DNA of 64,000 nt from Acinetobacter sp. MB5 (lineage in GTDB: Bacteria; Pseudomonadota; Gammaproteobacteria; Pseudomonadales; Moraxellaceae), in assembly GCF_003261585.1 (NCBI RefSeq), contig NZ_POVU01000005.1, forward strand, positions 62,001-126,000. The letters are read 5' to 3'. Below are positions 11,920 through 36,324 of the stretch, piece by piece. A program made the position numbers and the translations under genes. The notes under the pieces are model-generated. The model had not been told where the DNA came from and did no database searches. It saw only the letters and a list, made by a program, of their open reading frames with translations. The first letter of the stretch is position 1; the number at the start of each line of letters is the position of its first letter.

Positions 11920-11922
11920 GTC

Positions 11923-16589: not shown

Positions 16590-16594
16590 TAGGG

Positions 16595-16630
16595 ATAGCC
16601 ACTTTCGGGTGGCTATTTATTATTATTTTT
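16595..16630 (+). terminator. Terminator between convergent tail and lipoprotein genes
   Basis: ATAGCCAC (16595-16602) and GTGGCTAT (16609-16616) form a hairpin followed by a T-rich run. It closes the forward tail operon before the reverse-strand moron. Confidence 0.75.
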
Positions 16631-17021: not shown

Positions 17022-17144
17022 TGTAATCCTCGTATTTGTAATTTTTAGAACACACCCAGCAATCCTAAAATGTCTATCCCCCTCTAAGGTTCGATCTTTT
17101 TTAGACCTTTATTCATGCTATGCACATACCAATAGGAGTGCATC

Positions 17145-20100: not shown

Positions 20101-23100
20101 AAAGCGGTAACGGTCGTACATTGGCAATTGCCCAAGCGTATGCTCAAGGCAAGGCGGAGCATTATCGTAACTGGTTGAAATCAGAAGGCCATGACATTAC
20201 AGGCATGAAGCATCCTGTATTGGTCCGTGAGCGTATGACACCGATGTCGATGCAAGATCGTATGGACTTTACCAAAGAAGCAAATACGTCCAATACATTG
20301 AATTTGAGCGCAACAGAGCAAGCCCAAACCGATGCAGCAAAACTAAACGATGTGATTTTGAGTCAATATCAGGGTGGTGATTTAACGCTTTCAAAGAATT
20401 TAGGTTTTGTTCGCCAATTCATGTCTCAAGTGATTGGCCATACTGAAGCTGGCAATATGATCCTGGATGATGGCTCATTATCCCAAAATGGGGTGCGCCG
20501 TATTCAAGGTGCTTTGTTGTATAAAGCCTACAGTGATGAAAGCCTACTGCATGAAATTTTAGAAAATACCGATAGCGATATTAAAGCGATTGGTAATGCT
20601 TTGCTCGATGTCTCAGGGGATTGGGCATTGATGCGCGAACAATCTGAAAATGGCACGATTTCGCGCCGTATAGATGTCACAGCCAACTTGGTTGAGGCGG
20701 TGCAACTGGTACGTCATGCACGTGCGACTGGTACACATATTTCGGAAGTGATCGAGCAGGGTGATATTTTTGAGGGCGAGATTGATCCAGTCACTCAGGA
20801 TTTTATCCGCCTGTTTTTCCGTGGTGAAAACTACAACCGTGCCAGTGGTCGAGATTCTGTTGCGAGCGCATTGAAATACTATGTTAATTTAGCGACAGAA
20901 ACCAAAGCTGGTGAAAATATTTTTGGTGAACCTGAACTTACAGGGCAAGAACTAATCCGAGGCGTAAATGAAAAACTCTCAAACCAAGAAAAAAGCAAGC
21001 AGCAACAAAACCTCTTTACAGGCGAGAGAGCTAATGACTCAAATGTTGGAAAGAACGGCACAACAGGAGAAGGACAAAGAACTGGCCAATCAAATGAAAG
21101 TTCGTCGAATCAGCCAAAAACAATAAAAGAAAGTATTGAGCAAATTCATGCAGAAAAGATTCGTCAAAAAACCATAAGTGATTTACATAGCGGTGTTTAC
21201 GGTAAGGCATCTATAGCAGATTTGGAAAATTCACTTAAACTTTTAAATAAACAAATCCAAAAAGCCCATAAACAAAGTGAAAATGAAGTTATTAATGGTA
21301 AACGAAGTACTCGAAAAGCTGTTTCATCAGGTGCTTTAGATCGGTTCTTAAAAAATCGTGTTGATTTAGAAACTTATATCAAAGCAAGAAAGTCGGGTGA
21401 AGTAGAGCAAAGAACGTCAGTCATTGAAAAATTTAGTCGTGAGAGATTGAAACCTGATCAAGAGCGCAAAGGTGTTTCATCACTGGATACGATTTTTGGA
21501 ACTCTCTCTGCTACTACTGCTATTCAGCGTGTTCTTGCGATTCTTAATCATCTCAAATTGTCCGCTACACAAGATACGTCTCTGAATGGGCGAATTACTG
21601 TTGGAACTGCTGGAATTAAAGGGGGCTTTAATATTCAAGTCATTTCTAGCTTTGATGGACTTCCAACGAAAATACAACAAGATGCAACTTACCAAGATGA
21701 AAATGGTGATACCAAAAATTATGATGTAAGTGGTGTTTGGCATAATGGCACACTCTATGTGGTCGCCGATCAGGTATATGGAGATAGTGACAAGCAGCTT
21801 ACTACATTTGATGCTTATGAGGAATTATTAGCACATGAAATCATTGGGCATTTGGGTGTTCAGCAGATCTTTGGTCAAGAATATAAGACCAAGTTACAGC
21901 AGCTCTATAATGCACTTGGTGGTTTAGAGGGTATCCGCAAAATTGCTAAGGAAAATAATGTGGATATGCAGCAGTTTGAGGGTGCATATATCCAACCGTA
22001 TACTCAAGCAGCCCAAGATGGCATTTATACTCAATCAGATGTGCAGCAAGCACTGGTAGGGGAGTTATTTGCATTCATTGCACAGAATGCTGAAAAAAAA
22101 CCACTGATTCGACAGAAATTAAAAGAAGTTGTGGGTTATCTTCGCCAGTGGTTGCGTAATCACGGCTTTGAAAAACTATTATCTCGCTATAATGATGCTG
22201 ATTTAATGATGTTTTTGGCTGAAGCACGTAAAGCGGTTGTTGACCAAAAGTACTTTGGAAAATATAAAGATCGAGACATTTCTAAGAATAATGGTGATGA
22301 ATTATTCAGCCGTGGTCAATCAGAAACACGTACTACCACTTCGGTAGAACAAATTCGAGATAAGCTTTCTTCACGATTTGGCGAAGCCATTATTTCAAAA
22401 TTGGAACAAGATAGTAAGCTAAATATTCTTGAAACCTATGATCAGCAAGGGATTGAAGGTTTTTATCAGAATGGCAAAGTCACTTTAATTGCAGACGCAT
22501 TGACCGATGACAGCATCATCCCGACATTTCTGCATGAGCTTGGCGGTCATGGCGGTTTCCAGAACATGATGAACCAGGAACAATATTCAAACTTGATGAA
22601 GCAGTTTGATGAGATGGTTCGCCGTGGCCATCCTGTTTTTACCGAGGCTAAGCGATTGGCTGAGCGTGAATCAGATCTAGAAACCCAAAAGCTTGAATAT
22701 CTACCTTACTTGTTATCACTGGCCAGCCACATGCAGCTTAGGAATGTTATTCAAAAAGGTGCTTTGAAATCATTTATTGGTAACTTGATCTCAAATGTAA
22801 AAGCTTGGCTATTTGATCGTCTTGGTATGAATATCAACTTGAATCAAGATGATATTTTGGCACTGGCTGAGCGTATGATTAACAAATCTGCTAACCATAC
22901 CGACCAACAAGCTATCAGTTTTAGTGAGCAAGATAAGCCAGTCTTTACAGATGCTTTTACAATTTCTGAGGCTGAACAGCAACGTGTGGCCAAAGAGATT
23001 GATCGATTGGCTGAGTCCATTCAAAGTTACCCAAAACCTGTACAGATGAAAATGCCGCCTGTATTGCTTGCCTTAAATGGTATTCGTGATGGTTTAAATA

Positions 23101-26100
23101 TCCAGAATTTACCTTTGGAGCTAGATAAACAGACTTTACGCAAAATTACAGGGCAGGTTGATGGTAAAAAAGATGTCAGTCATCAATTGACTATAGATCA
23201 GATTAAACAGCTTCCTAATGAGTTCACAGATCCATTAGCAGTATTACATTCTGACAAAAAGGATGGCTTGATTATTCTAACCTCAATGAAAGATAGTGCA
23301 GGTAATCCAGTAATTTCAGCCATTCATTTAAGTAAGAATAAGGGACGATATACCATTAATGAGCTTGCAACAGCTTTTGGAAAGGAGAATTTTAAGACTT
23401 GGCTAAACAAACAATTAGATAATCTTGTTTACTATAGAAATAAAAAAAGCCAAGGCTTTGTACGACAGTCCCAACTTCAGAAACAAAAAGATGTTTCGTT
23501 GGGTGTGGTTCACAAAGACTCAGCTTCAATTGAAGATTCTGCAAATTCTACGCTTCCCTCGCTCCAATTGCGAGGAGTAGTAGATAGCAAATCTTCTAAT
23601 CAAAGTGTACTTAGCCCTGATGCTGTTGTCAATTTCTTCGAAAAATCAAAAGCTGAGAATGACAAGCTATATAGCCGTAATTCTAATTATGGTGACATTG
23701 CTGATCGAATTTCTAAGGGCTTACAGAATTTACCTAAAACAGGGGATTGGATTCAGAATAAAAGTGTGGATTGGTTGAAAATTGGATTAGGCTTTTTAAG
23801 TCGCAGGCATTTAACTGAAATTTATCACAAAATATTACCACAGTTGACCAAGTATAATAATTTAGCTGCTCAAATGGATGCAGATAAAAATGATATTGCT
23901 GCTGAGGCGGATAATATTGCGCGTGAATGGTCTAAATTAAAGGATGAAGAAGCTTTAGCAAATGTCATGCATGATGCAACTCTTGCTCAGATTGACCCAG
24001 CCAAACCTTACCAACAGGGCGATGATAAGATGAAGTATCAGCGTCTTTTGCATGCATATAATAATCTGTCACCTGAAGCTCGGGCGATGTATGTCAAAGT
24101 CCGTAATGCTTACAGTAGTCATTATTTAAAAGTTCGAGAAGCAATTCGAGAGCGGATTTTACGGTCTGCTTTAAGTAGTGAAAAGAAAACAGATCTATTG
24201 AAAAAAATAGAAGGCTCCTTTGGACAAATCAAAGGTGTGTACTTTCCGTTAGCACGTTTTGGTCGATATATGGTTGTCGTCCGCAACTCAAATGGTGGAG
24301 TTGAAAGTGTTAGTCGGGCTGAAACCAAGGGCGAAGCTGAAACTTTACGTGCTGAACTTGTAGAAAAATACCCACAGTTTAAAGTTGATAAAGTAAAGCT
24401 GGATAAAGAGTTTAATGCCTCTCACGATGGGGTTAGTCGTGGATTTATGTCTAGTCTGTTTGATGAAGTTGGTCATTTAGGCTTAGATGCAGATGCTCAA
24501 GCTGAGTTTAAAGATACCTTAAGTCAATTATATTTATCTTCCATGCCTGATCTATCTTGGGCAAAGCATGGAATTCACCGCAAGGGGACTGCGGGATTCA
24601 GTCAAGATGCTCGCCGTGCATTTGCTCAGAATATGGTGAGTGGTGCGAACTATCTTGCCAAATTGAGGTATAGCGACCAATTGGCAGAACAGCTTGATGA
24701 AATGCAGAAATATGCCGATGAGAAATTTGAAAAAGATTCAGAGTATGACCAGCGATCTGCTCAAAGCGTTCTGGATGAAATGAAAAAACGCCATGAAAAC
24801 TTAATGAATCCTAAAGGACACCCATTATCTAGTTTGCTTACGAGTGTTGGCTTTATGTATTACATGGGCTTATCTCCTGCAGCCGCGATTGTAAACGTGT
24901 CACAGACTGCATTAGTTGCCTATCCAATGATGGGTGCGAAGTGGGGATTTGATCGAGCAGGAAAGGAATTATTAAAGGCATCAAAAGATTTTGCGAAAGG
25001 TATTGAATTTAAAGCGCCTAAATTTTCAAATTTAGAAGATTTTAAAAATACTGTAGGAAGCATTTATAACCCAGATATTGCCAAGGCGTTAAGTAATGAT
25101 GAGTTAAAGGCTTATGATGAAGCTGTAAAACGTGGCGTTATTGATGTTACACAGGCTCATGACTTAGCAGGTATTGCCCAAGGGGAGGATAGTAAAGTGA
25201 TGTGGTATTTCCGACCTGCCATGCGTTTGGCTAGCGGAATGTTTCACCATACTGAACGCTTTAACCGTGAAGTAACTTTTATCGCAGCATATCGTCTAGC
25301 CAGTCAAGCTGGATCTAGTCACGCTGAGGCATTTGATCAAGCTGTAGATACAGTTTATCGAGGACATTTTGATTATTCATCAGGGAATAGAGCACGGTTT
25401 ATGCAGAGCAATGTAGCCAAAGTGGTTTTACTGTTCAAGCAATATGCTCAAAATATGTTGTATACCTTGTTGCGAAATGCCCATCAAGCTATTTATGCCC
25501 TTGATCCCAAAGAACAAAAAGAAGCACGCCGTGCTTTAGGTGGGATGTTGGCTATGCATGCTTTAGCTGCTGGTGCTTTAGGTTTACCAATAACAGGAAT
25601 GCTGGGTGCCGCATCCCTTTTGATTGCTAAGAAAAGCAAACTAGGTGCTGCTGCATTCGGGGTTGCAGCACTGGCGGCATTGGCAGGCGGTGGTGGTGAC
25701 GATGATCCATACGAATTGCAAAATGTGATTCGAAATTGGTTGGCAGACATTAACCCGATGCTTGCCGATGCCGTTTTTGGCGGATTACCTCGGGCATTTT
25801 CTCCTGTTGATCTATCTGGGCGTGTTGGGTTGAATAATTTAATCTTCCCTGATGTACAGGATGGACTTGAAGGTGCTGATTGGTCGAATGCATACACTGC
25901 AGCATTGCTTGGACCTGTCGCTGGCATTGGTACAAATATAGCAAAAGGAATGCAGCAGATTGGGGATGGGAATTTGGGGCGTGGCATTGAAACAATACTA
26001 CCCGTTGCTTTAAAGAATGGAATGAAGGCTTATCGATTTGGGAATGAGGGTGTTCTCACTAAGGATAAACAAGTGATACAAGAGGATGTGAGTGGTGTTG

Positions 26101-26462
26101 GCGTTGCTGCACAAGCTATTGGTTTCTCTCCTTCAGATGTTCGGACATCTATGGAAGGTCGTTCAGCAATTTATCAATATAAAACTAAACTCAAGAATCA
26201 TCGTAGTGATTTGATGCGTAAGTGGGTTTTAGCAAGAAAAGATGATGACAGTAATGCTATGGATAAGGTTTGGGCAGAAATTTTACGCTTCAATGAAAAT
26301 GTGAATGAGAAAAATCCTGGTATGCGTATTACTCGTTTAAATTTGATCCAGAGTTATAAGACCAGTCAGAGAAAAGATAAAAGTACTGGTGATGGTGGTG
26401 TTTATCTAACCAAACGTGAACAAGGTGCTGAGGAACAAGGGCAATTTGCTTTTAGTCAGTAG
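17145..26462 (+). CDS. Giant polyvalent PLxRFG internal virion protein (3,105 aa)
   Basis: A single 3,105-residue frame with ATG after AGGAGTGCATC. In order: two PFTG-x-LD motifs (residues about 6-30); a Gly/Ala-rich membrane-like segment (140-330); a low-complexity Gln/Ser/Asn region (330-740); an InPase-like domain with HVDSYIGPD (about 765-890); a DdrB/ParB-like domain with ESGNGRTLAIAQAY (about 930-1270); two HExxGH zincin-like motifs (HEIIGH near 1562, HELGGH near 1794); a MuF-C/BECR-like region (about 1990-2120); the PLARFG signature near 2366; and a C-terminal region with hydrophobic segments near 2800-2850. Such proteins are packed in the capsid and ejected with DNA. Several domains are known from anti-restriction (DdrB) and toxin contexts. 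Which of them are active is unknown. Confidence 0.85.
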   Translation: MSESTLKPFTGKLDENTDTKQQPTLQPFTGALDGEKKGFLGQAKDLGVSLVPQGLAGVAELGVGLSNIMSDGATGKILQDKGVYNAKAVRDELNTWHTDQYQEQLKQKANIPKQEIKEGDSLSTQAGKLFNNTKEYLKFYKDNPAMIANTAAESIAPMIAGGLLGRATGIANPVVAGAVGEGLSMTGSQAEQIRQNTVDGRLTADQSLASVGTGALGSLFSLAGGRVAQKLGIGDANTLLAGGRAGAADIANEIASMPAKSVPRKVIEGALHEGLLEELPQSVSEQILQNLALSKPWSDGIEDAAVMGTLAGMAMGAAAGPMHGGHGNNQSSNSVEQDNLQQNQNINAPQLGMRDQAIDGEYIPRQDMSSQDPQQHTTYTYDQQSTDAENLLGNNNSNFGAPDDLAGSNPSDIPPNGPNTPIAPNGSYFDAPQKPSEQMGIDPNNGPMSSAAALAVDSGASSVLQAGLAQEQQTQSQTVAPLSDAVPSDYRQLMESQNNRQSFGTGFENAALQQGNTQADNASKSRPQQSESTTPTSVKPTFTSNQAVGSVGYAQDVAKQAVQQYQGDKSTLEESKSSLTGKGPATDLLYYKNSPSFSDVQVEPNASGDKAIVKLTSAKTGRIEQREYPSSLIDFNNFLEGTNNNASKTEQDNLQNGNTETQAASESPTALDNAHQSTDQVIGQEVHDPQDQITALENQLSNEKNVVQKTKLRKQINELKANVAASAAKNLEVSAHTAATSPENNLPEPTQAQKEAGNYKKGHVQFHGLDISVENPRGSDRTGQRPDGTEWRHTMTDHYGYIKKTMGADGDHVDSYIGPDLESQHVYIVDQVDQKTGKFDEHKVMLGFNDQDTATKAYQANFDKGWNVGHIRAMTMNGFKQWLKEGDTTKPSAEFDDKTETVTTAAGRDLQVRPKVVEASDLIASNTSTGTVNEAYPQELQPRDRTRLASLHQINSIANDLKPNLLGKSPSASHGAPIVSSDNIVESGNGRTLAIAQAYAQGKAEHYRNWLKSEGHDITGMKHPVLVRERMTPMSMQDRMDFTKEANTSNTLNLSATEQAQTDAAKLNDVILSQYQGGDLTLSKNLGFVRQFMSQVIGHTEAGNMILDDGSLSQNGVRRIQGALLYKAYSDESLLHEILENTDSDIKAIGNALLDVSGDWALMREQSENGTISRRIDVTANLVEAVQLVRHARATGTHISEVIEQGDIFEGEIDPVTQDFIRLFFRGENYNRASGRDSVASALKYYVNLATETKAGENIFGEPELTGQELIRGVNEKLSNQEKSKQQQNLFTGERANDSNVGKNGTTGEGQRTGQSNESSSNQPKTIKESIEQIHAEKIRQKTISDLHSGVYGKASIADLENSLKLLNKQIQKAHKQSENEVINGKRSTRKAVSSGALDRFLKNRVDLETYIKARKSGEVEQRTSVIEKFSRERLKPDQERKGVSSLDTIFGTLSATTAIQRVLAILNHLKLSATQDTSLNGRITVGTAGIKGGFNIQVISSFDGLPTKIQQDATYQDENGDTKNYDVSGVWHNGTLYVVADQVYGDSDKQLTTFDAYEELLAHEIIGHLGVQQIFGQEYKTKLQQLYNALGGLEGIRKIAKENNVDMQQFEGAYIQPYTQAAQDGIYTQSDVQQALVGELFAFIAQNAEKKPLIRQKLKEVVGYLRQWLRNHGFEKLLSRYNDADLMMFLAEARKAVVDQKYFGKYKDRDISKNNGDELFSRGQSETRTTTSVEQIRDKLSSRFGEAIISKLEQDSKLNILETYDQQGIEGFYQNGKVTLIADALTDDSIIPTFLHELGGHGGFQNMMNQEQYSNLMKQFDEMVRRGHPVFTEAKRLAERESDLETQKLEYLPYLLSLASHMQLRNVIQKGALKSFIGNLISNVKAWLFDRLGMNINLNQDDILALAERMINKSANHTDQQAISFSEQDKPVFTDAFTISEAEQQRVAKEIDRLAESIQSYPKPVQMKMPPVLLALNGIRDGLNIQNLPLELDKQTLRKITGQVDGKKDVSHQLTIDQIKQLPNEFTDPLAVLHSDKKDGLIILTSMKDSAGNPVISAIHLSKNKGRYTINELATAFGKENFKTWLNKQLDNLVYYRNKKSQGFVRQSQLQKQKDVSLGVVHKDSASIEDSANSTLPSLQLRGVVDSKSSNQSVLSPDAVVNFFEKSKAENDKLYSRNSNYGDIADRISKGLQNLPKTGDWIQNKSVDWLKIGLGFLSRRHLTEIYHKILPQLTKYNNLAAQMDADKNDIAAEADNIAREWSKLKDEEALANVMHDATLAQIDPAKPYQQGDDKMKYQRLLHAYNNLSPEARAMYVKVRNAYSSHYLKVREAIRERILRSALSSEKKTDLLKKIEGSFGQIKGVYFPLARFGRYMVVVRNSNGGVESVSRAETKGEAETLRAELVEKYPQFKVDKVKLDKEFNASHDGVSRGFMSSLFDEVGHLGLDADAQAEFKDTLSQLYLSSMPDLSWAKHGIHRKGTAGFSQDARRAFAQNMVSGANYLAKLRYSDQLAEQLDEMQKYADEKFEKDSEYDQRSAQSVLDEMKKRHENLMNPKGHPLSSLLTSVGFMYYMGLSPAAAIVNVSQTALVAYPMMGAKWGFDRAGKELLKASKDFAKGIEFKAPKFSNLEDFKNTVGSIYNPDIAKALSNDELKAYDEAVKRGVIDVTQAHDLAGIAQGEDSKVMWYFRPAMRLASGMFHHTERFNREVTFIAAYRLASQAGSSHAEAFDQAVDTVYRGHFDYSSGNRARFMQSNVAKVVLLFKQYAQNMLYTLLRNAHQAIYALDPKEQKEARRALGGMLAMHALAAGALGLPITGMLGAASLLIAKKSKLGAAAFGVAALAALAGGGGDDDPYELQNVIRNWLADINPMLADAVFGGLPRAFSPVDLSGRVGLNNLIFPDVQDGLEGADWSNAYTAALLGPVAGIGTNIAKGMQQIGDGNLGRGIETILPVALKNGMKAYRFGNEGVLTKDKQVIQEDVSGVGVAAQAIGFSPSDVRTSMEGRSAIYQYKTKLKNHRSDLMRKWVLARKDDDSNAMDKVWAEILRFNENVNEKNPGMRITRLNLIQSYKTSQRKDKSTGDGGVYLTKREQGAEEQGQFAFSQ

Positions 26463-26465
26463 CTA

Positions 26466-26495
26466 AATAAAGCACCCTAGGGTGCTTTATTTTTT
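26466..26495. terminator. Bidirectional terminator (perfect 26-base palindrome)
   Basis: AATAAAGCACCC (26466-26477), TA, then its exact complement to 26491, followed by T residues. It serves the giant gene and also contains the stop codon of the convergent reverse-strand membrane gene. Confidence 0.85.
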
Positions 26496-27010
26496 AGATC
26501 CAGAGCTCTTACTATATTTATTAACTCATCTCTATTCTTTGAAATAGGTGCATAGTGTTGATATACATCTGCTACTTTATTTCTATTCTTGAAGTAGATG
26601 TATAAAAAAAGCATAGCTTGAAAAAGTGCACCAAGAAATAAACTACTAGCTATCCATATAAATAATGATGAAATAAAATTGTGTGTAAGTTCATTTGATA
26701 AAAACAGTGGTATATATACAATTGCAGCAGCAATGAAATAACAGTTTTTAATGTATTTTGAGCTTTGCTGTATTTTATTTATATCCTTATAAATTAAAAT
26801 TTTAGTCTTTTTTTTGATCTTGCTGGTAAGCTCTTTTTCAGATAGTTTTTCTAACGGTATATATTCAATTATAAAGTATTCAAAAAAAAGTACTAATCCG
26901 ATAGTTAAAATCAAAACAAGCATACCTTGAATGTTATATTTGCCTATTAACCATAGATTAACTAATAGAATAATCCCACAAATAACACGAATTATAGTTG
27001 TGATTGTCAA
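26477..27010 (-). CDS. Phage-encoded membrane protein (moron), unknown function
   Basis: A 177-residue, very hydrophobic protein with about four transmembrane helices (residues about 4-22, 28-50, 92-108 and 112-136) and a Lys-rich cytoplasmic loop between helices 2 and 3. It is on the opposite strand to the flanking virion and lysis genes and is visibly AT-rich. It ends inside the shared palindromic terminator. The position suggests a lysogenic-conversion gene; membrane morons often block phage adsorption or DNA entry, but no family is recognised here. Confidence 0.65.
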   Translation of the reverse strand: MTITTIIRVICGIILLVNLWLIGKYNIQGMLVLILTIGLVLFFEYFIIEYIPLEKLSEKELTSKIKKKTKILIYKDINKIQQSSKYIKNCYFIAAAIVYIPLFLSNELTHNFISSLFIWIASSLFLGALFQAMLFLYIYFKNRNKVADVYQHYAPISKNRDELINIVRALDLKNKAP

Positions 27011-27121
27011 TTTTATTTCCTAATGTAATTTTTAAAAGTTTACTGACAGTTTTAAAAATGCCTGCCTATTGTACTAAATAATGCCAACCCCTGTAAGCCT
27101 CGCTTAATTTCCTCAATTTCT

Positions 27122-27153
27122 AAAAACTCTACGTTCAAACGTGGAGTTTTTTT
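27122..27153 (+). terminator. Hairpin terminator before the lysis cassette
   Basis: Arms 27122-27134 and 27139-27151 (with a G-T and similar minor imperfections) around a TCAA loop, followed by a T run. It insulates the lysis genes from upstream transcription and may be an antitermination target. Confidence 0.7.
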
Positions 27154-27175
27154 ATTGCCAAAATCGGGGGAAACC

Positions 27176-27457
27176 GTGGCAGATCAGCAAGCAATTGATA
27201 CCGCAGCAAGCATGACAGCAATGGCGGCAAAGACCGCAGTAGCAGGTGGTGCAACAGGGGTGTTTACGTGGCTAGGTGGCTTAGATATTGGTTTATTAAT
27301 CAGTATCTTTGCCGCAATTAGCGGCCTTTTGGTGAGTGTTTTTGGCTCTGTTGTGACTTGGTATTACAAGTACAAAGCAGACCAACGCGCCCAAGAGATA
27401 CATGCACTTGAAATGAAAAAAATAGAGAAAGGAGGGCGTGATGTCGAACAAGACTAA
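27176..27457 (+). CDS. Holin, HP1-like
   Basis: A 93-residue protein starting at GTG 27176 after a GGGGG ribosome-binding site; an in-frame TTG at 27155 lies inside the terminator and is less likely. It has two hydrophobic segments separated by 'GGLDIG' (residues about 15-35 and 40-62) and a charged C-terminus (KYKADQRAQEIHALEMKKIEKGG), the usual shape of small class II holins. It would form the membrane lesion that releases or activates the endolysin. It overlaps the endolysin gene by 17 bases. The family match is by topology and context. Confidence 0.75.
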   Translation: MADQQAIDTAASMTAMAAKTAVAGGATGVFTWLGGLDIGLLISIFAAISGLLVSVFGSVVTWYYKYKADQRAQEIHALEMKKIEKGGRDVEQD

Positions 27458-27962
27458 AATCGCCGTATTGCTTACATCAATGGTCAGTTCAGGCGGAGTT
27501 TTATGGACATCTGGATACGAGGGGTGGCGTTCAAAGCCGTACTATGACACGGGCCGAGTCGTGACACAGGGTTTTGGCTCAACAGTTAAGCCTGATGGCT
27601 CAAAAATCAAGATCACAGATAAGCCAATCACCCAAAAACAAGGGCTTGAATACTTAAAAGTACACATGGCCAAAGATGCGAAAGTCTTTAACAAATCACT
27701 GTCAGGCGTGAAGCTTTCACAGAATGAATATGATGTTTATATGGACTTCACTTATCAGTTTGGGACGGGTGCCTGGTCATCATCTAAGATGTTGGCCAAC
27801 TTAAAGCAAGGTAAATACGTTCAGGCTTGTAAGTCATTAGAAGCATGGCGTTTTTCGCGTGTACAGGGCAAGAAAGTTGATTGTCGTATTAATCGGGGCT
27901 GTGCTGGGGTTTGGAATCGTCAACATGCACGTATGCAGAAATGTTTAGGAGCAAACGCATGA
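27441..27962 (+). CDS. SAR-type endolysin, glycoside hydrolase family 24
   Basis: A 173-residue lysozyme starting at ATG 27441 after GGAGGGCG. The catalytic triad of the T4/P21 lysozyme family is spaced exactly as expected: Glu27 (GYEGWR), Asp36 (YYDTGR), Thr42. The N-terminus (KIAVLLTSMVSSGGVLWTS, residues about 5-25) is a weakly hydrophobic Gly/Ser-containing segment without a cleavage site, typical of a signal-arrest-release anchor. The enzyme would be exported by Sec, held inactive in the membrane and released when the membrane is depolarised. It cleaves peptidoglycan between MurNAc and GlcNAc. It overlaps the holin upstream and the Rz gene downstream (ATGA). Confidence 0.92.
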   Translation: MSNKTKIAVLLTSMVSSGGVLWTSGYEGWRSKPYYDTGRVVTQGFGSTVKPDGSKIKITDKPITQKQGLEYLKVHMAKDAKVFNKSLSGVKLSQNEYDVYMDFTYQFGTGAWSSSKMLANLKQGKYVQACKSLEAWRFSRVQGKKVDCRINRGCAGVWNRQHARMQKCLGANA

Positions 27963-28549
27963 CAACTGCACTTTTAATCATAAAGGCGATTTGGGACTTC
28001 TTATGCAAAGTTTTTCTTTGGGTACTATCGAATAAGCGTTGGTCTCTAATCATTGTCCTAGTGATATATAGCGTATTCCAGACTTGGCAAGCTAACAGTC
28101 TGGCAAGTGATCTGAACAGTACTGATGCTAAATGCACAACGAAAGTGAACCAGGTGCAAGCTGATTTTGATAAATACAAAGCAGACCAAAAAACAGCAAT
28201 TGAAACAGCTAAAACTACAGTTGCCACACAGCAACAGAAATGGGCTGAAAAACTTTTAAAGGTAGAACAAAATGCGAATCAAAAAATTCAAGATGCGGCT
28301 GCTGCCGCTCGTAGTGCTGAGCTGGTTAATCATGGGCTGTCAGAGCAGATCAATCGTGCAAACGAACGTCTGTCCACAGCTTCCCGAGAAGCCATTGCGG
28401 ACTACGCCAAAACCTGTAATTCAGTACTCAAAAACTTGGCAGTTAGAGGTGGAGAAATCGCAAAAGCTGCTGACGGACACGAAATTGATACAGAGCGATT
28501 AGAAGAATCTTGGGACGTTGTAGCAAGTGGAGTAAAGCCCTCTAAGTGA
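27959..28549 (+). CDS. Rz-like inner-membrane spanin
   Basis: A 196-residue protein beginning at ATG 27959, which overlaps the endolysin stop as ATGA and follows TTTAGGAGC. One N-terminal transmembrane helix (about residues 27-45, SLIIVLVIYSVF) is followed by a long Lys/Gln/Ala-rich coiled coil (about 65-140), the hallmark of an i-spanin. With the outer-membrane lipoprotein Rz1 encoded inside it, it would fuse inner and outer membranes at the end of lysis. The longer in-frame start at 27911 is rejected because it lies inside the endolysin gene and has no good ribosome-binding site. Confidence 0.88.
   Translation: MTTALLIIKAIWDFLCKVFLWVLSNKRWSLIIVLVIYSVFQTWQANSLASDLNSTDAKCTTKVNQVQADFDKYKADQKTAIETAKTTVATQQQKWAEKLLKVEQNANQKIQDAAAAARSAELVNHGLSEQINRANERLSTASREAIADYAKTCNSVLKNLAVRGGEIAKAADGHEIDTERLEESWDVVASGVKPSK
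28272..28502 (+). CDS. Rz1-like outer-membrane spanin lipoprotein, nested in Rz
   Basis: A 76-residue protein entirely inside the Rz gene in another frame. It has a lipoprotein signal (LPLVVLSWLIMGC, lipobox LIMGC) followed by a short Pro-rich mature region (CPQLPEKPLRTTPKP), exactly the Rz1 pattern. It starts at ATG 28272 after AAAGG; an internal ATG at 28293 is also possible. Together with Rz it forms the two-component spanin that bridges the periplasm. Confidence 0.88.
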   Translation: MRIKKFKMRLLPLVVLSWLIMGCQSRSIVQTNVCPQLPEKPLRTTPKPVIQYSKTWQLEVEKSQKLLTDTKLIQSD

Positions 28550-28559
28550 GGGCTTATTT
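28535..28559 (+). terminator. Terminator after the lysis cassette
   Basis: AAGCCCTC (28535-28542) pairs with GAGGGCTT (28548-28555), followed by a modest AT-rich tail. It lies between Rz and the convergent reverse-strand gene. Confidence 0.65.
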
Positions 28560-29148
28560 AAATAATATTAGAAATAATGCTTTCGATGCTTTTTAATGAG
28601 TTGATTGTTGCTTTAAATGCATTATCTATATTAACTTCATCATCCAACCAAATTGACTTGGCCCCATTCGTATTAGATTCATATGAATTCTTAGGACTAT
28701 TATTTAATAATAAACTTTTAAGATGAACCACCTTGATTATTTGATCTTGCAAAATATGATTTGGTATTTTTTCTAAGACTAATCGGTCATTAAATGACTG
28801 AAAATTATTTTTTAATATTAAAATCTCTCTAGAGATTATCATAATATTTGATAAATTTACTTTTACATTTTCCTCATGGAATGGGTCATTTGACCCTCTA
28901 GTATGTAAGTCTCTTAGATAGTAAGAGCAGCTAGTCTCTATATTTTCAAAAAATATGACTAAATCGGAGAAAACATTCATACACAAAAAAGATTCTTGTT
29001 GGATTCTAAAGTAAAGCTCCATTGTTTGAGTTTTATTTTGGAGTAAATAACCTCTAAATGTTAGAAATCCAATCAAAACTAAATTTAAAATAGCAACTAT
29101 AGCTTCTATAGCTGAGTTATTTTTACTAATAAAATCAAATATTTGCAT
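28558..29148 (-). CDS. AT-rich membrane-anchored protein of unknown function
   Basis: A 196-residue protein with one clear N-terminal transmembrane helix (IEAIVAILNLVLIGFLTFRG, about residues 13-33) and a long helical cytoplasmic part without recognised domains. The composition (Asn, Ile, Lys, Ser) and base content are more AT-rich than the neighbouring phage genes. It faces away from the VRR-NUC gene across a 162-base AT-rich gap. Its place between the lysis cassette and umuDC is an accessory slot, so a lysogenic-conversion or anti-phage role with its neighbour is possible but only inferred. Confidence 0.65.
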   Translation of the reverse strand: MQIFDFISKNNSAIEAIVAILNLVLIGFLTFRGYLLQNKTQTMELYFRIQQESFLCMNVFSDLVIFFENIETSCSYYLRDLHTRGSNDPFHEENVKVNLSNIMIISREILILKNNFQSFNDRLVLEKIPNHILQDQIIKVVHLKSLLLNNSPKNSYESNTNGAKSIWLDDEVNIDNAFKATINSLKSIESIISNII

Positions 29149-29310
29149 TAATAATTGTGTCCAATAAAATTTATTTTTTTACTAATTTTCATTTTTCCAA
29201 AATTCCATATATTAACTAATTTTATTAAGATATATTATATACATGAAATTTAACTTTGAGTTATTTACTTAAAATAAAAAATATCAATCTATTGTACATA
29301 GGAAATTAAT

Positions 29311-29946
29311 ATGAAAAAAAGATTATCATTAAAAGATCAATGTATAGAGTCTGGGATTGACTTTGAAGAGATTAAAATAGCTTATGATGCTAAACCGGAA
29401 TTAGCATTATTAAAATATTATGAAAAACAGGGTTATATTGGCTCATTCATTGAAGGCTATACAATCCTAACAGTTTTAAAGGCATTGATGTTAGATAAAT
29501 TAACTCAACTAAATCCATTTAATGATAGGAATGATGCTTGTAGCAGATATCTTGAAGCTCAATTTACAATTCATAAAGGACTAGAGTCTGTGATCATAAA
29601 TTCGATTCGTAGCATTAATAGAGGAAAATATTTATCAAATTTACGAGAAATTTTTAAGCAGCCTTTTATAAAATCACAACACCCAAATTTATCATTTCAA
29701 TGTTGTGAAGCATTGTATGATGCTATTGATTTAGAAATTTTTATAAGGGTCGCAAGAAAATTTTCTGAGGATCCATATACATATAGAAATGGTTGGCCCG
29801 ATTTAATAATCGTAAAAGATAATGAAGTTAGGTTTATAGAAGTAAAAACAACTGATAAGTTGCATAGTAGTCAGCTAATAACAATACCAACTTTTAGTAA
29901 AATTTTACCTTATAACTTTTCTGTTTGTAAGCTTATAAAAATTTGA
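29311..29946 (+). CDS. VRR-NUC domain nuclease, AT-rich accessory gene
   Basis: A 211-residue protein. The last 60 residues hold the VRR-NUC (PF08774) core of the PD-(D/E)xK superfamily: 'GWPDLIIV' (catalytic Asp), then 'VRFIEVKTTDKLHSSQ' (ExK plus the family's Gln), then a Val/Cys-rich strand. The N-terminal 140 residues are helical and unrecognised. Many VRR-NUC proteins process branched DNA or act as phage recombination nucleases; free-standing ones also occur in defence loci. The start ATG follows AGGAAATTAAT. It is divergent from the membrane gene and ends 2 bases before the convergent umuC stop. Base content suggests horizontal origin. Confidence 0.8.
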   Translation: MKKRLSLKDQCIESGIDFEEIKIAYDAKPELALLKYYEKQGYIGSFIEGYTILTVLKALMLDKLTQLNPFNDRNDACSRYLEAQFTIHKGLESVIINSIRSINRGKYLSNLREIFKQPFIKSQHPNLSFQCCEALYDAIDLEIFIRVARKFSEDPYTYRNGWPDLIIVKDNEVRFIEVKTTDKLHSSQLITIPTFSKILPYNFSVCKLIKI

Positions 29947-29948
29947 AG

Positions 29949-31247
29949 TTAAGAGTTAATGCTAATCAATCCATCCCAAGTGAATGGATTTCTACTCAAT
30001 TTATCTCTACTCATGGACCAAGGGCGGTTCGGTATATAGCAAGCACCTATACCTAATTTCTTTTTCCCAAACCGTTCATGTACATTTTCAAAAGCACACA
30101 TTAACTTTTCATTTCTATCAATTTTGGCCATATCAGTGAGAAGATCAAAAGTATGGCCACCTTTAGGTTCTAATCCAGTTAGCATCACCCCACATTTCTT
30201 GTACTTGATGCCTTCTTTGTAGATATGGTCTAGCATCGCAGTTGCGGCTTTAACAAGATCAATGACACAGTCTGTAGATTCAGGAAAAGCATAAGAAATC
30301 GCTTTGTTATAAAAAGGCACATTAGGATCAAAGGGATTAGACTGTACAAAAGCCACGATACATCCACAAAGCAACTCACCTGCACGTAATCTAGAGCAGG
30401 CATCTTGTGCATACATGCTAATCGCTTCTTTTAAGTCGTTGAGCTCAGTGACTCGAGATCCAAAAGATCGACTGGCCACAATCTGTTTCTTACTTGGTGG
30501 TGTGTGTTCAACTTCAATGCAAGAAATTCCTTGCAGCTCCGTAACAGTTCTCGCCATGACAATTGAGAATTGTTTTTTTATTTCTGCTGGGTTTGTACGA
30601 GCAAGATCAAGAACAGTATGTATCCCCATACTTTGTAGTTTCTTAGAGTGCTTCCGCCCAACACCCCAAACCTCTGAAACATCAACTATGCTCTCAAAAT
30701 AATCACGATGCTTAGGATTCATAGAGACCAAATTACACACGCCATTAAAGCGTTTGCCTTTCTTGGCCATATGGTTGGCAATTTTTGCTTCGGTCTTACT
30801 CCGACCGATACCCACACACACGGGTAAACCTAACCACTTCAATATCCGCTGTCGCATTTGCTGAGCGTACTCAGTGAGATTATAAATCTCTGCATATGCT
30901 GTAAGTTCTAAAAAGCACTCATCAATCGAATAGATTTCTTGCTCAGAGGGCGTAACAAAATCCGCAAGAATCCGATGAAATCGCTGAGACATCTCATTGT
31001 ATAAAGCATAATTACTGGAAAGCACCTGAACATTGTGCTGCTGAACAATATCTTTGATTTGAAATAGGGGGACACCCATTTTGATTCCGAGATCTTTAGC
31101 TTCTTGCGAACGTGCGACCGCACAGCCGTCATTATTCGACAGGACAATGACAGGTTTGTTATTGAGAGACGGATTAAACACTCGTTCACAACTGACGTAA
31201 CAATTGTTCACGTCAATCAAGGCAAAGATTTGGTTCTGGTGTTTCAT
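29949..31247 (-). CDS. umuC: Error-prone DNA polymerase V subunit UmuC
   Basis: A 432-residue Y-family polymerase. The opening '[17 protein letters not shown]' contains the first catalytic Asp; '[11 protein letters not shown]' and '[10 protein letters not shown]' carry the other metal ligands; the '[21 protein letters not shown]' stretch is the thumb/finger signature. With activated UmuD' it copies past DNA lesions after SOS induction. The ATG overlaps the umuD stop (ATGA), so the pair is translationally coupled. The region equivalent to the E. coli beta-clamp motif QLNLF reads as 'HTFDLL', a weak match. Phage-borne umuDC pairs are common in Acinetobacter prophages. Confidence 0.95.
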
Positions 31248-31816
31248 CTAAAGTTCTTCAAAACACGTGTTACAACACCCCAAATGATTAGCTCTTGGCC
31301 TTCATCAAAATGAATATCATCAAAGTCGGGGTTTTCTGCTTTCAACCAATGCTGATCACCCTCAATCATAAGTCGCTTAACCGTAAAATCATTATCGATG
31401 AGTGCGATCACGATATCTCGATGCTTTGCATCTAAACTACGATCGACAATCAATTCATCATTAATATCAATTCCGATGCCCAGCATAGATAGTGAATTTA
31501 CGCGAACAATAAAGGTTGCAGCAGGGTTCTTGATGAGGTGTTCATTTAGATCGAGAGTTTGTTCAACATAGTCTTGAGCAGGAGAAGGAAAGCCAGCTTG
31601 AACTCGCTCAGATGCGAGGGGAATTGCAATATGGGTTACAGGATCTACTTGACGAATATGATTAATCTCGATTTCATTTTTATTTTTCTTCAGATATTCT
31701 TTGATGTCTAATACACGTGATTCAGGTACGCGCAGCACTTTCGTTGGCTCATTATATTCTAGCTTACGGCCAGCGCCTTCACGCTTACCTCCATGCTGTT
31801 GTTTTAAATGCTTCAT
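31244..31816 (-). CDS. umuD: UmuD-like self-cleaving SOS protein
   Basis: A 190-residue protein of the UmuD/LexA S24 family. The N-terminal extension (about 60 residues, '[12 protein letters not shown]' then '[16 protein letters not shown]') is longer than in E. coli UmuD. The cleavage site is Ala-Gly in '[12 protein letters not shown]'. The catalytic Ser lies in '[10 protein letters not shown]' and the Lys in 'FTVKRL'. RecA-ssDNA would trigger cleavage to UmuD', which activates UmuC. A long N-terminus is also seen in the Acinetobacter regulator UmuDAb, but no clear DNA-binding helix-turn-helix is visible here. Its own promoter region has a palindrome. Confidence 0.92.
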
Positions 31817-31849
31817 GATGCCAAATCTCGATTTTGTTACATAATCAAA

Positions 31850-31878
31850 ATTTTAGAATTTGGCAATAATAAATTCAA
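31850..31878 (-). promoter_or_regulatory. umuDC promoter with overlapping palindrome
   Basis: On the reverse strand TTGAAT (31873-31878), a 17-base spacer and TAAAAT (31850-31855) form a good sigma-70 promoter. A 21-base palindrome, GAATTT-N9-AAATTC (31856-31876), fills the spacer and enters the -35 box. Its arm length and spacing resemble the TTGAAA-N9-TTTCAA operators bound by UmuDAb-type SOS repressors, so it is a candidate SOS operator. Confidence 0.5.
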
Positions 31879-31976
31879 ATTTAAAAGTTGTGGATAATCA
31901 AGGGGACTTTCATCTTTAAGACAAGTGGTCTTAGGATAGAGCAGTGATTTCAAAGTTTTGATAAATTGGACATATA

Positions 31977-32267
31977 ATGAAAAAAATATTCTTTTTGCTT
32001 GCTACAGTACTCATTTTTGCATCATCTGAAGTTCCTGCAAAAAAAACTCATGTAGTGAGTGATGATGCGATAAAAGAAAAAATCATTCAGGATTCAATAG
32101 ACTCGTATCCAGGGCCATGTGCTTGCCCGTACAATTCAGCTAGAAATGGTAGCCGCTGCGGTAAACGTAGTGCATATTCGAGAGCAGGGGGATATGAAAC
32201 GATTTGCTATAAAGAAGATGTAACCAAACAAATGATTCAAGACTATAAAAACAGGAATAAAAAATGA
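31977..32267 (+). CDS. Small secreted Cys-containing protein, unknown function
   Basis: A 96-residue protein with a cleavable signal peptide (KKIFFLLATVLIFASSEVPA). The mature part has the conserved pattern 'YPGPCACPYNSARNGSRCG' then 'RSAYSRAGGYETICY', which includes four Cys likely in two disulfides. I have the impression that this pattern recurs in small proteins of prophages and islands in Proteobacteria, but I cannot name the function. The stop overlaps the next start (ATGA), so it is coupled to the following membrane gene. A short palindrome lies upstream (31917-31933). Confidence 0.7.
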   Translation: MKKIFFLLATVLIFASSEVPAKKTHVVSDDAIKEKIIQDSIDSYPGPCACPYNSARNGSRCGKRSAYSRAGGYETICYKEDVTKQMIQDYKNRNKK

Positions 32268-32545
32268 GCAAGACTCTAAAGATTTCAACTTTTATTCAAG
32301 ACGTTATTACCATCATAGTGATTTCAGCTGTAATCATCATAGGACTATTGCAGCTTCAGATCAGCCATAAAGACAGAGCTGGTAGCTATGTCGAGGGAAC
32401 AGATGGTTACTCAGGTTACACATTTGCAAGAGATAATAATTTGAAGTCAAAAGCTGAATGTGAGTATGCAAAGCTACCACCATCGTCTGCCGAAGAAACC
32501 AGTGATGAGTTTATGCAGGGCTGTCACAAGTATTTTGAAGAATAA
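32264..32545 (+). CDS. Small single-span membrane protein, unknown function
   Basis: A 93-residue protein with one transmembrane helix (IITIIVISAVIIIGLLQL type, about residues 13-33) and a periplasmic, Cys-containing tail (SGYTFARDNNLKSKAECEYA). It is translationally coupled (ATGA) to the secreted four-Cys protein before it, so the two may act together in the periplasm. No family is recognised. It belongs to the accessory block between umuDC and the integrase. Confidence 0.6.
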   Translation: MSKTLKISTFIQDVITIIVISAVIIIGLLQLQISHKDRAGSYVEGTDGYSGYTFARDNNLKSKAECEYAKLPPSSAEETSDEFMQGCHKYFEE

Positions 32546-32548
32546 AAT

Positions 32549-33201
32549 ATGCTAGAAATTTTTTTTAAAATTATTGCTGTAGTTACTGGTTTTTGTTTAC
32601 CAATAATCATGCATATTTGAATAACAAGTTGGCACATTTAAAAAATGGTAGAGAGATAAGAAGTGAGCTTCTACAACTAGCCGAAGACTTTGGTAAAAAT
32701 GATCTGCATAAAAAGCCTATCCTTTATAAGGATAGAATGGCGCAATCGCTCTTCAATAATGACAATTTAACCTATCAGGAAGCAAAATATTTTTCGAATT
32801 ATGAAAATGCTGATTTTTGGGTACGGGAGTATGCCAAAATTAGGGGGTTGTTAAATAGAGAAAGAAGCTCTTTAGGAGAAATTATAGGATTTACACCTAG
32901 ATTTACTAATTGGGGGATTTTTTTTAGGCTCGTTGGATATTTTTTCTGTGCTTCACTTGGTCTAATCCCATTTATCATGGTGAATAAATATATTGATTTG
33001 ATAGAAAAATATTATGAAAATGGAATGTTGGTAAGTATATTTCTAATGATTGCCTTGCCTGCAATTTTACTTTGGATTTCGTATGTTTGCTTAAAATATG
33101 CCGAGCGCTGTGCAGCATGTAAAATGTTCTTAAAGGATTTTCAAAATAATGCTTTTGAAGTTCCACCCCTAATAGGTCCACCAGAAAACACTCAAGCATG
33201 A
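32549..33201 (+). pseudogene. Membrane protein gene with a probable one-base frameshift near its start
   Basis: The main frame (202 codons from TTG 32593) has two transmembrane helices (about residues 113-133 and 146-168). It has no usable ATG near the beginning and no ribosome-binding site before the TTG. An ATG at 32549, six bases after the previous stop, opens a 23-codon frame (MLEIFFKIIAVVTGF...) encoding a signal-like hydrophobic segment. Adding one T to the five-T run at 32590-32594 would join both frames without any stop. This suggests a recent single-base deletion, a sequencing error, or slippage. The product is otherwise unrecognised. Confidence 0.5.
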
Positions 33202-33234
33202 GCGGATTAATTGTTTTAATGTCGATCTATCATT

Positions 33235-33264
33235 AATAGCTCATACATTGTGTATGAGCTATTT
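33235..33264. terminator. Bidirectional hairpin terminator
   Basis: AATAGCTCATACA (33235-33247) pairs perfectly with TGTATGAGCTATT (33251-33263), loop TTG. It separates the forward accessory genes from the reverse-strand gene and integrase. Confidence 0.75.
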
Positions 33265-33281
33265 AAAAATCTGAAATGCCG

Positions 33282-33500
33282 TTATTTGACTGTACCTAAA
33301 ACTGGAATCATTCTTGGTCCAGCTTCACGTGCTTTACTAACAATTTCAACCAATTCATCGTATGTTAAGTTGAAAGAGTCTGAGCTATCAAAAATGTACA
33401 CAACATTCTTGTCTTTTAGCTCTTCTGGCTTTTCAGGGATAAAGCGTTCAGGAATCAATTTCTGAGTTAATCCTTCATCAGATAGGTGTTTAGGTATCAT
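33282..33500 (-). CDS. Small hypothetical protein downstream of the integrase
   Basis: A 72-residue soluble, charged protein (ATG after ATAGGACA on the reverse strand). It lies 20 bases after the integrase stop and is transcribed in the same direction, so it probably belongs to the integrase transcript. It has no clear winged-helix fold, so it is not confidently an excisionase. No domain is recognised. Confidence 0.6.
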   Translation of the reverse strand: MIPKHLSDEGLTQKLIPERFIPEKPEELKDKNVVYIFDSSDSFNLTYDELVEIVSKAREAGPRMIPVLGTVK

Positions 33501-33520
33501 TTTTTGTCCTATGCAAATTG

Positions 33521-35140
33521 TTAAGATCGTTGAATAAGGTTTGTTTGATCATAACTATAATAACGAGTTATATCGATCCATGTAGAAATGTCTTTTTCCC
33601 ATTTGTAAACTCGATTGCCATCTAACCTTAAGAGATCTAGTCCTTTGATCCCAAAATGTGTGGAATCATTAGGGAGTAGATCCCATGGAATATCTGAGTT
33701 TTCTGATAGCCAGTTTTCCCAGGCATTTTGAATATAAGGAACAACGAAGTTTTGCTGCAGCTCATTCCAAGAGAAAATATTTTGAATATTCGATTTCTCT
33801 TTATATGAATCAATGACACTTTTTGTTGGTCTAAATGATTTGATGAACTTTTCTAATAGTTCCTTAACAAAAGGATAGTCAGTATTGAGGTTATTTGGTG
33901 ATTCAATTACTGAATATGCTTCTTCAGCATCGGCAATATCTGCAGCAGAAATATAACGCTGTTTAAGCGCAAATTTTGAGTAATTCTCCCCAAACTGTTC
34001 TTTGGCAAATTGAATAGCATCTTTGTATTCAATACGCTTGCCACGTTTCTTTAAATTGACGTAGCGTTTTAGGCTACCCCAAGATGAATGAAGAGTGATT
34101 GTCTGGAGCTGGGGAATGGTAAAACCATCTTCGGCATAGCGAGTCGCTGCTTCATGCCGTAAGTCATGGAATCTTAGATCCATGATGTTATTCAATCTGC
34201 ATGCTCTACGGAAATAGTCAGAAACAGTTTGAACATTAACAGGTAGTAAAAGCTCATCACTATAACCAAGCTCTAGCATTCGTTTACGTGTCGAAGGTTC
34301 CAGTAATTCATCAATGATCAACAGTGCATTTGGTTCAAGATGTGCAAATTTATGGTTGCCTTTTGAGCCATCAGGATTTTTAACATCACGGATCTTCCAT
34401 TGATTGTTTTTACGATCAAAATCCTCAAGCCGCATTTCGCACAGCTCACCTTCACGGCGACCAGTATAGATCGCAAGCCACATTACCAAATGCATTGGAA
34501 TAGCATTACGGACGCGCTTCCAGCCTTTATAAAAGTGGTTTGTGAGTGTGAAAAGTTCCTCTGTTGTAATCAGACGATCACGCTCTTTGGATTTGGTGAC
34601 GATACGGGCCTTTTTTAACCCAATGATTGCTTGAGATAGTTCATTTTTGGCGTTTGCAACATCTTCTCCCCAAACAAGCTCAGCATGGCCTAGAACACTC
34701 GAGATATGCGAAATGTCTTTCAGAGCGGTTGATGGACTAACACCATCAATCATTTCCATCGGGTTGCCTTTACGCCGCTCAATTGCAAAATTTGAGAAGT
34801 CCTGGCGAGAAAGGGTATAGACATCTTTTTGAGAAATATCATAGTTACAAATATTTTTTAAAGCTGCTTTCTTCGTCCCGGCAAATTCATCCCCAATTTC
34901 TTCGATATACTTCTCGATAAACTGATCTAAAGTTTTTGACACAGTTTGAGTTTCTGGATTTAAAATAGCGGGATTAACAAGTATTTCTGCTTCAACTCGT
35001 TTAATCCATTCTTTGGCTAATGATTCTTTGGCAAAAGTTCTTGTTTTGTTGAATGTGGTTTTATCTGGTCGTTTGATGCGTATTTGTGCTGTGTAAGTAA
35101 ACCTCCCATCAATTTTCTGACGTTTTGTAATTGTTCCCAT
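33521..35140 (-). CDS. int: Tyrosine site-specific integrase with long C-terminal extension
   Basis: A 539-residue tyrosine recombinase. The catalytic residues are visible: Arg in 'YTGRREGELCEM', His-x-x-Arg in 'FHDLRHEAATRYA', His in 'TLHSSWGSLKRY' and the nucleophile Tyr at about position 360. An N-terminal arm-binding region and a core-binding SAM-like domain precede these. About 180 residues follow the Tyr, whereas most phage integrases end within 20-30. Their function is unknown. The gene begins about 110 bases before dusB and points away from it, so it sits at the attachment site and would insert the phage into dusB. Confidence 0.93.
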   Translation of the reverse strand: MGTITKRQKIDGRFTYTAQIRIKRPDKTTFNKTRTFAKESLAKEWIKRVEAEILVNPAILNPETQTVSKTLDQFIEKYIEEIGDEFAGTKKAALKNICNYDISQKDVYTLSRQDFSNFAIERRKGNPMEMIDGVSPSTALKDISHISSVLGHAELVWGEDVANAKNELSQAIIGLKKARIVTKSKERDRLITTEELFTLTNHFYKGWKRVRNAIPMHLVMWLAIYTGRREGELCEMRLEDFDRKNNQWKIRDVKNPDGSKGNHKFAHLEPNALLIIDELLEPSTRKRMLELGYSDELLLPVNVQTVSDYFRRACRLNNIMDLRFHDLRHEAATRYAEDGFTIPQLQTITLHSSWGSLKRYVNLKKRGKRIEYKDAIQFAKEQFGENYSKFALKQRYISAADIADAEEAYSVIESPNNLNTDYPFVKELLEKFIKSFRPTKSVIDSYKEKSNIQNIFSWNELQQNFVVPYIQNAWENWLSENSDIPWDLLPNDSTHFGIKGLDLLRLDGNRVYKWEKDISTWIDITRYYSYDQTNLIQRS

Positions 35141-35157
35141 ATTTATTTACCTATTCG

Positions 35158-35207
35158 AATGCTACATTTTTTAATAATGCTACAATTAAGAAAATTGTAG
35201 CATTATT
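35158..35207. repeat. Inverted and direct repeats between int and dusB
   Basis: AATAATGCTACAATT (35173-35187) and its exact reverse complement (35193-35207) form 15-base arms around a 5-base loop. The core AATGCTACA is repeated once more at 35158-35166. The site lies in the shared int/dusB upstream region and may be an integrase arm site, a regulator operator, or both. Confidence 0.7.
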
Positions 35208-35230
35208 TTAGCAATGAATAGTAAAGAATG

Positions 35231-35270
35231 ATTCAGAATGTTGGAAAATGATTGAGAATATAGGAATTGG
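35231..35270 (+). repeat. Imperfect 20-base tandem repeat at the prophage edge
   Basis: ATTCAGAATGTTGGAAAATG (35231-35250) is followed directly by a variant with the same frame of A/T/G positions (35251-35270, ATTGAGAATATAGGAATTGG). The second copy forms part of the new dusB coding start. It may be an integrase-binding repeat. Confidence 0.5.
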
Positions 35271-36324
35271 AAAATTGAGTAAAAACAAAGTCATCGAAGA
35301 ATTGTTCGATAAAACAAAGCGTAACCAAATTTGGGTCGCGCCGATGGCAGGTGTAACTGATCGGCCATTTAGAACACTGTGTAAATACTTTGGTGCAGGG
35401 CATGCGGTCAGTGAAATGATGACCGCTGATAAAACACTTCGCATGAGCAAGAAAAGCTTATATCGCGCCAACTTTGATGGTGAAATTGCCCCAATCTCAG
35501 CACAAATTGCAGGCTCAGACCCAGAACAGCTAGCTGAAGCTGCTCGTTATCAGGTTGAGAATGGTGCACAGATTGTCGATATTAATATGGGCTGCCCAGC
35601 CAAAAAGGTTTGCAATAAACTGGCTGGTTCAGCATTACTTCAAGATGAAGATCTGGTCGCTCGAATTTTAGATACCGTAGTCGCTGCTGTCGATGTGCCA
35701 GTAACTTTAAAAACACGCCTTGGTTATCTGAATGGTCATGAAAATATCGTGCGGGTGGCGAAACGTGCTGAACAGGCAGGCATTGCAGCGTTAGCACTGC
35801 ATGGGCGTACCCGTGAAGATATGTATTTAAATACGGCACGTTATGAACTGATTAAACAAGTTAAAAGTCATATTGATATTCCCGTGATTGCCAATGGTGA
35901 TATTGACAGTCCAGAAAAGGCCAAATATGTACTTGATTACACGGGTGCAGATGCGATTATGATTGGTCGTGCTGCTCAGGGGAGACCGTGGATTTTTCGT
36001 GAAATCGCCCATTATTTAAAAACAGGGCAGCATTTGTCTGCGCCGAGTATTGAAGAAGTTAAAACCGTTTTGCTTGGACACTTGAGCGAGCTGTATGAGT
36101 TCTATGGCGAATATTCAGGATGCCGTATTGCACGTAAACATATTGCTTGGTACACCAAGGGCCTACATTCAAGTAATGAGTTTCGTCAGAATATGTACAA
36201 GGTTGAATCGACCCTTGAACAAGCAAAAGTGGTGGAAGCCTACTTCAATTTATTGCTTGATCAAGGGCAAAATATGGATGATGTGCAAGTTGAGTCGGTC
36301 GATTTACTCGGTGCTCAGGCTTAA
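35248..36324 (+). CDS. dusB: tRNA-dihydrouridine synthase B with prophage-supplied N-terminus
   Basis: A 358-residue FMN enzyme that reduces a tRNA uridine (position 17 in E. coli DusB) to dihydrouridine. DusB-type motifs: 'APMAGVTDRPFRTLC', 'DINMGCPAKKVCNKLAGSAL' (catalytic Cys), 'ALHGRTREDMY', 'IPVIANGDI' and 'TGADAIMIGRAAQGRPWIFR'. These differ from DusA. The first 25 residues (to about Lys24-Arg25) have no DusB similarity and come from phage DNA, whereas E. coli DusB has only about ten residues there. ATG 35248 has a weak ribosome-binding site; TTG 35275 is an alternative. The stop overlaps the convergent oxidoreductase stop. Expression now depends on a phage-derived promoter. Confidence 0.95.
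   Translation: MIENIGIGKLSKNKVIEELFDKTKRNQIWVAPMAGVTDRPFRTLCKYFGAGHAVSEMMTADKTLRMSKKSLYRANFDGEIAPISAQIAGSDPEQLAEAARYQVENGAQIVDINMGCPAKKVCNKLAGSALLQDEDLVARILDTVVAAVDVPVTLKTRLGYLNGHENIVRVAKRAEQAGIAALALHGRTREDMYLNTARYELIKQVKSHIDIPVIANGDIDSPEKAKYVLDYTGADAIMIGRAAQGRPWIFREIAHYLKTGQHLSAPSIEEVKTVLLGHLSELYEFYGEYSGCRIARKHIAWYTKGLHSSNEFRQNMYKVESTLEQAKVVEAYFNLLLDQGQNMDDVQVESVDLLGAQA

Follow-up and report, generated by a model that had tools for sequence, protein, structure and literature searches.

Our findings indicate that a temperate phage very probably integrated at a 19-bp site within dusB of Acinetobacter sp. MB5 and swapped the 5' end of the gene, and that the 5' end displaced in this way was already of phage type, presumably left behind by an earlier occupant. 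The DNA analyzed here (the window) comprises 64,000 nucleotides (62001-126000) of C55, a 243,040-base contig in a genome of 63 contigs (G000). In mechanistic terms, the tyrosine recombinase of the phage would direct integration to the 19-bp site, which encodes the residues VAPMAG of DusB. Because the crossover catalyzed by the integrase would lie inside dusB, within these 19 bp, the resident 5' end would come to lie at the opposite end of the prophage. The phage would in turn provide its own ribosome-binding site and about 20 in-frame codons opening with a TTG start, and a full-length DusB would thus still be encoded.

Both junctions can be read directly on C55. The right part of the prophage lies in the window (Table 1); its left core is located outside, 61,515 bp from the right core as calculated from coordinates, and the whole element thus measures about 61.5 kb. 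Window positions 35254-35353 are duplicated at C55:35739-35838 with 93% identity over 100 bp (E 9.8e-37), so that the second copy is not a product of chance. The identical run at the two prophage ends spans 72 bp and terminates in the 19-bp core GTCGCGCCGATGGCAGGTG, immediately to the right of which the sequences diverge; direct repeats (attL and attR) are accordingly present within the dus 5' end. Similarity to four A. baumannii records begins where the core does, at position 35335. These belong to 14 matching records in a plasmid collection, where they align from the core onward, and three of the four are chromosome-sized (3.7-4.1 Mb). A comparison of positions 34900-36400 with a phage collection returned no match. 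The repeated core and the tyrosine recombinase gene, which adjoins the 5' end of dusB, bear out the first-pass annotation, which had proposed a prophage insertion in dusB. The gene had also been named correctly: in addition to its PF01207 match, the product scores 393.3 bits against TIGR00737, for which the family cut-off is 293.3 bits, and its nearest named relatives are Acinetobacter DusB proteins. Elsewhere in the prophage, genes for a UmuC-like polymerase and a UmuD-like protein are found at 29949-31816 (minus strand), and a protein of 3105 residues (17145-26462, plus strand) matches DarB-like antirestriction, endolysin and head-protein families.

Table 1. Features at the right end of the prophage and in dusB (window coordinates)
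Feature	Position	Strand	Basis
Prophage, right part	1..35353		Repeat at both ends; capsid and head-closure family matches in window
Tyrosine integrase, 539 aa	33521..35140	-	PF00589 E 3.3e-19; PHROG integrase E 3.8e-42
Phage DNA, integrase to dusB start	35141..35261		Inverted and direct repeats
AGGA, likely Shine-Dalgarno, 9 nt before TTG	35262..35265	+	Sequence
Phage-side 5' end of dusB, probable TTG start, 20 codons MSKNKVIEELFDKTKRNQIW	35275..35334	+	Comparison with 64 phage-type and 18 ancestral-type genes
19-bp attachment core GTCGCGCCGATGGCAGGTG (attR)	35335..35353	+	Identical at C55:35820-35838
Host part of dusB	35354..36324	+	PF01207 E 4.4e-100; TIGR00737

The integrase has relatives at 76-87% identity on seven contigs of a viral collection, two of which extend into dusB, both with a phage-type start. 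Its best matches are to an uncultured Caudovirales phage (45.8% identity) and to Acinetobacter phage MD-2021a (41.4%), both over 71% of the protein. It also matches, at 32-34.5% identity over 68-71% of its length, the phages BcepIL02, DC1, H66, BcepMigl and AH2, which are named among the DAI hits in the available part of PMC4482086. The first-pass annotation had considered the dusB target a notable variant; the mechanism is, however, already published (Farrugia et al., 2015, PMC4482086). The available text of that paper describes pAICU30, a dusB-specific island of A. baumannii ACICU: its att sites measure 19 bp, its excision was detected by PCR, and it offers a potential alternative 5' end for dusB. 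The authors also argue that DusA obtains a replacement beta strand, and they count 16 dusB or dusC hits. The window element resembles pAICU30 in its dusB target, its 19-bp att sites and its element-derived alternative 5' end but, with ACICU compared by description, differs in having displaced a 5' end that was already phage-type. With the DAI family it shares a tyrosine integrase at the dus 5' end and the replacement of that end, whereas the target is dusB, unlike that of the dusA-specific members (PMC4482086). In the portions of other papers at hand, a pneumococcal prophage lies 3' of dusB rather than inside the gene (PMC8637289), dusB is mentioned once in a manner relevant to dusB integration (PMC6070778), and no phage insertion inside dusB appears (PMC12503941). 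Within the open-licence literature searched, the available part of PMC4482086 does not mention how large a share of the genus has replaced ends, that one replacement can follow another, or that the new ends persist once the integrase is lost, as described below; as far as that text extends, our genus-wide counts go beyond it.

Where does translation of the chimeric gene begin? We consider the TTG at 35275 the probable start, and not the ATG at 35248; the product then reads MSKNKVIEELFDKTKRNQIW-VAPMAG. Among 64 phage-type genes, the codon 20 positions before the V of VAPMAG is TTG in 51, ATG in nine, GTG in three and ATT in one, and three of the four GTG or ATT genes (G014, G165, G098) have an ATG directly after it. 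From that codon up to the upstream stop, 43 of the 64 lack any in-frame ATG, GTG or TTG. Because of these codon counts and the many genes without an upstream start, the ATG at 35248 is probably unused, and about 20 rather than 25 residues would therefore precede VAPMAG. The earlier attribution of the first ~25 residues to the phage thus holds as to their side of the junction and their lack of resemblance to the ancestral N-terminus, but probably not as to their number. It had further been assumed that the phage supplies a ribosome-binding site, for which the AGGA of Table 1 is a likely candidate, and a promoter. The latter is suggested by geometry only, because a simple sigma-70 scan of 35100-35340 found none. 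The spacer between integrase and dusB contains a perfect 15-bp inverted repeat (35173-35187/35193-35207, with a 5-bp loop) and a 12-nt direct repeat (at 35158 and 35176); at a guess, the repeats in this spacer are arm sites of the integrase.

DusB is present in all 149 Acinetobacter genomes of our genus sample. Alignment to the window protein starts at residue 13 or earlier in 65 of them, which we call phage-type, and only at residue 25 or 26 in the other 84. The ancestral N-terminus, MxIGxYxLxN, is absent from the window dusB, which has the phage side in its place. The ancestral-type genes inspected begin MYIG[SP]Y[QR]LSNNLI or MRIGPYQLDNALI, and the replacements are alike across elements, roughly MSxNxVIxELFD. 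We also compared 80 named loci, 74 from outside Acinetobacter and six from within. Most of the 74 begin MxIGxYxLxNxLI. Variants occur: the lead is longer in Psychrobacter and Moraxella, which lack the Y at this place, and some Betaproteobacteria read FxGFxLRN. No phage-type N-terminus was seen among the 74; two of the six Acinetobacter loci are phage-type. A search of named phages with the 36-residue phage-type N-terminus gave 13 records, none of which matches the phage-specific part, because no alignment begins before residue 16. Two of these records, Moraxella phage Mcat6 and Pseudomonas phage Y11, were rejected as carriers of the phage-type start, since both hold ordinary dusB starts.

If integration moves the resident 5' end to the far side of the element, ancestral ends should be found displaced in other lysogens. 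A probe of 137 bases covering the ancestral promoter and N-terminus matches at least 111 of the 149 genomes, with few candidates scored per genome. The match runs to the last base in ancestral-type genomes, and in ten phage-type genomes (G013, G029, G033, G059, G081, G086, G114, G117, G135 and G141) it stops where the core ends, at base 133. In eight of these the ancestral copy shares contig and strand with dusB and lies 34-61 kb upstream; in G033 and G135 it is found on a different contig. Some 15 further phage-type genomes contain shorter ancestral copies, most on the dusB contig, and a few weak probe matches fall on another contig or on the opposite strand. In G086, G141 and G117, the far junction consists of the ancestral 5' end, the core and then AT-rich sequence resembling the left end of the window phage. 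Comparison of types, displaced ends and junctions thus shows that the element supplies the replacement dus 5' end. In G022 and G088, an ancestral-type dusB is accompanied upstream by a second, more diverged ancestral-like 5' copy, at a distance of about 20 kb in G022 and 9 kb in G088; in G088 this copy ends at the same core base. It is as if an element had carried in an ancestral-type start, and these two genomes do not fit a simple one-way scenario.

The junctions of G086, G141 and G117 would fit the proposal of the first-pass annotation that the phage replaced an ancestral N-terminus in this very strain and that excision restores it. For G000, we nevertheless regard this as highly improbable. 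At the left junction of its prophage there is already a phage-type 5' end (87% identity over 71 bp to G113), complete with a separate AGGA and TTG, the ancestral probe finds nothing in the 63 contigs at E <= 0.001, and all five genomes of its DusB clade (G000, G015, G154, G113, G076) are phage-type. With a 5' end of this type in the left flank, excision would not be expected to restore the original gene: judging from the two junctions, it should yield MFENKVIEELF instead of MSKNKVIEELF, with only residues 2 and 3 changed.

Evidence for an earlier occupant comes from the close relatives. G076 and G113 retain only integrase remnants (~40% identity) and have an N-terminus of the same phage type. 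At the left junction of G154 there is a phage-type 5' end different from that at the right junction, 88% identical over 472 bp to G076, and the remains of an integrase lie 250-441 bp from the core. As read from this junction, one phage-written dusB start has been displaced by another. The left flank genes of G000 are collinear with those of G076 and G113, except that ~14 kb present there is missing here. A search to the left of the G000 prophage gave no convincing integrase remnant (best E 0.38), and for this reason the earlier element in G000 itself is something we infer. The first-pass annotation had also reasoned that the same N-terminus in phage-free relatives would argue against a phage origin. 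Such relatives exist in part, given the phage-type left junction, the absence of an ancestral match in G000 at the above threshold and the shared type of G076 and G113, in which only integrase remnants persist. The DNA left of the G154 prophage (L182-L183) also contains a CRISPR array, with repeats of ~28 bp every 60 bp and in part reading N; together with cas-like genes, it is flanked by a FabH-like gene on one side and by the old integrase remnant on the other. In G076 and G113, single CRISPR repeats occur at the same place. We take the genes beside the array to be a type I-F cas set.

Could the phage-type N-terminus instead be a vertically inherited host variant that phages have captured? 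Its frequency (65 of 149 genomes) would be in keeping with such an origin, as would the 26 of 64 phage-type genes that have no trace of an integrase in their upstream DNA; a further 16 have a full integrase ORF (>=450 codons) and 22 have remnants. Within 3.5 kb, however, an integrase or remnant is found beside 38 of 64 phage-type genes and none of 18 ancestral-type genes (Fisher p 1.8e-6; G153 and G164 were assigned to the ancestral type by eye). These counts omit G135, the 65th phage-type genome, because its contig starts three bases before the match. They include four phage-type genomes and one ancestral-type genome with less than 3.5 kb of upstream DNA; two genomes without a trace, G031 and G032, have upstream contig of only 509 and 293 bp, and one of the 22 remnants, in G015, is cut by the contig end 195 bp upstream. 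No integrase was found beside 20 ancestral-type loci with flanks of up to 1.5 kb, four genomes being shared with the 18. We built a quick tree from the dusB body, leaving out the N-terminus; its 73 rows comprise 70 of the 149 genomes (35 per type with available loci) and three Psychrobacter. It needs 12 changes of type, at least seven of them forced by starred branches, with a long-branch warning for G019, which joined with G090. The repeated changes, the integrase association, the ancestral pattern in outgroup loci and the ancestral 5' ends displaced by whole elements all speak against a host variant, and we give that origin very little credence.

On the upstream side of the phage-type dusB of G011, G073, G087, G129 and G142 lies an insert of 17-20 kb with ketoacyl-synthase-like and related genes, which we presume to resemble an aryl polyene cluster. 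Likewise upstream of the gene, in G063, G105, G109, G134, G140 and G158, what we take to be pgaB- and pgaC-like genes separate the phage-type dusB from its usual neighbor, presumably accompanied by a pgaD-like gene in all but G140.

How might the exchanged N-terminus affect the enzyme? In AlphaFold models of the two types (mean pLDDT 87.7 and 89.0), the first barrel strand is kept in both. Ahead of it, the ancestral model has short strands at residues 2-3 and 6-7, and the phage-type model has a helix at residues 5-10, its residues 1-3 falling below pLDDT 50. The phage-type model superimposes on E. coli DusB (6ei9) with a TM score of 0.80 by query length and 0.91 by target length. DusB function is presumably kept with the phage-type N-terminus. 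In addition to integration and exchange, it is conceivable but rather unlikely that the new N-terminus alters the activity, dose or substrate of DusB to the benefit of the phage. The similarity of the replacements across elements and the predicted helix in place of short strands would be in line with such a role, but this likeness may mean no more than that the elements share an ancestor and require a functional start.

From a broader perspective, the 5' end of Acinetobacter dusB might be a phage-written module, overwritten many times, at least once twice running, and kept after decay of the phage, with an N-terminal beta hairpin giving way to a phage-made helix and with changed expression or activity. 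We put this forward tentatively, and the odds are against it. If true, many species would run a tRNA-modifying enzyme with a phage-made N-terminus. Lying in a conserved tRNA-modification gene, the integration site apparently works as a genus-wide ratchet, whereby insertion swaps the start and phage decay fixes the swap. Natural pairs of DusB N-termini would offer a direct test of the role of this end of the enzyme.
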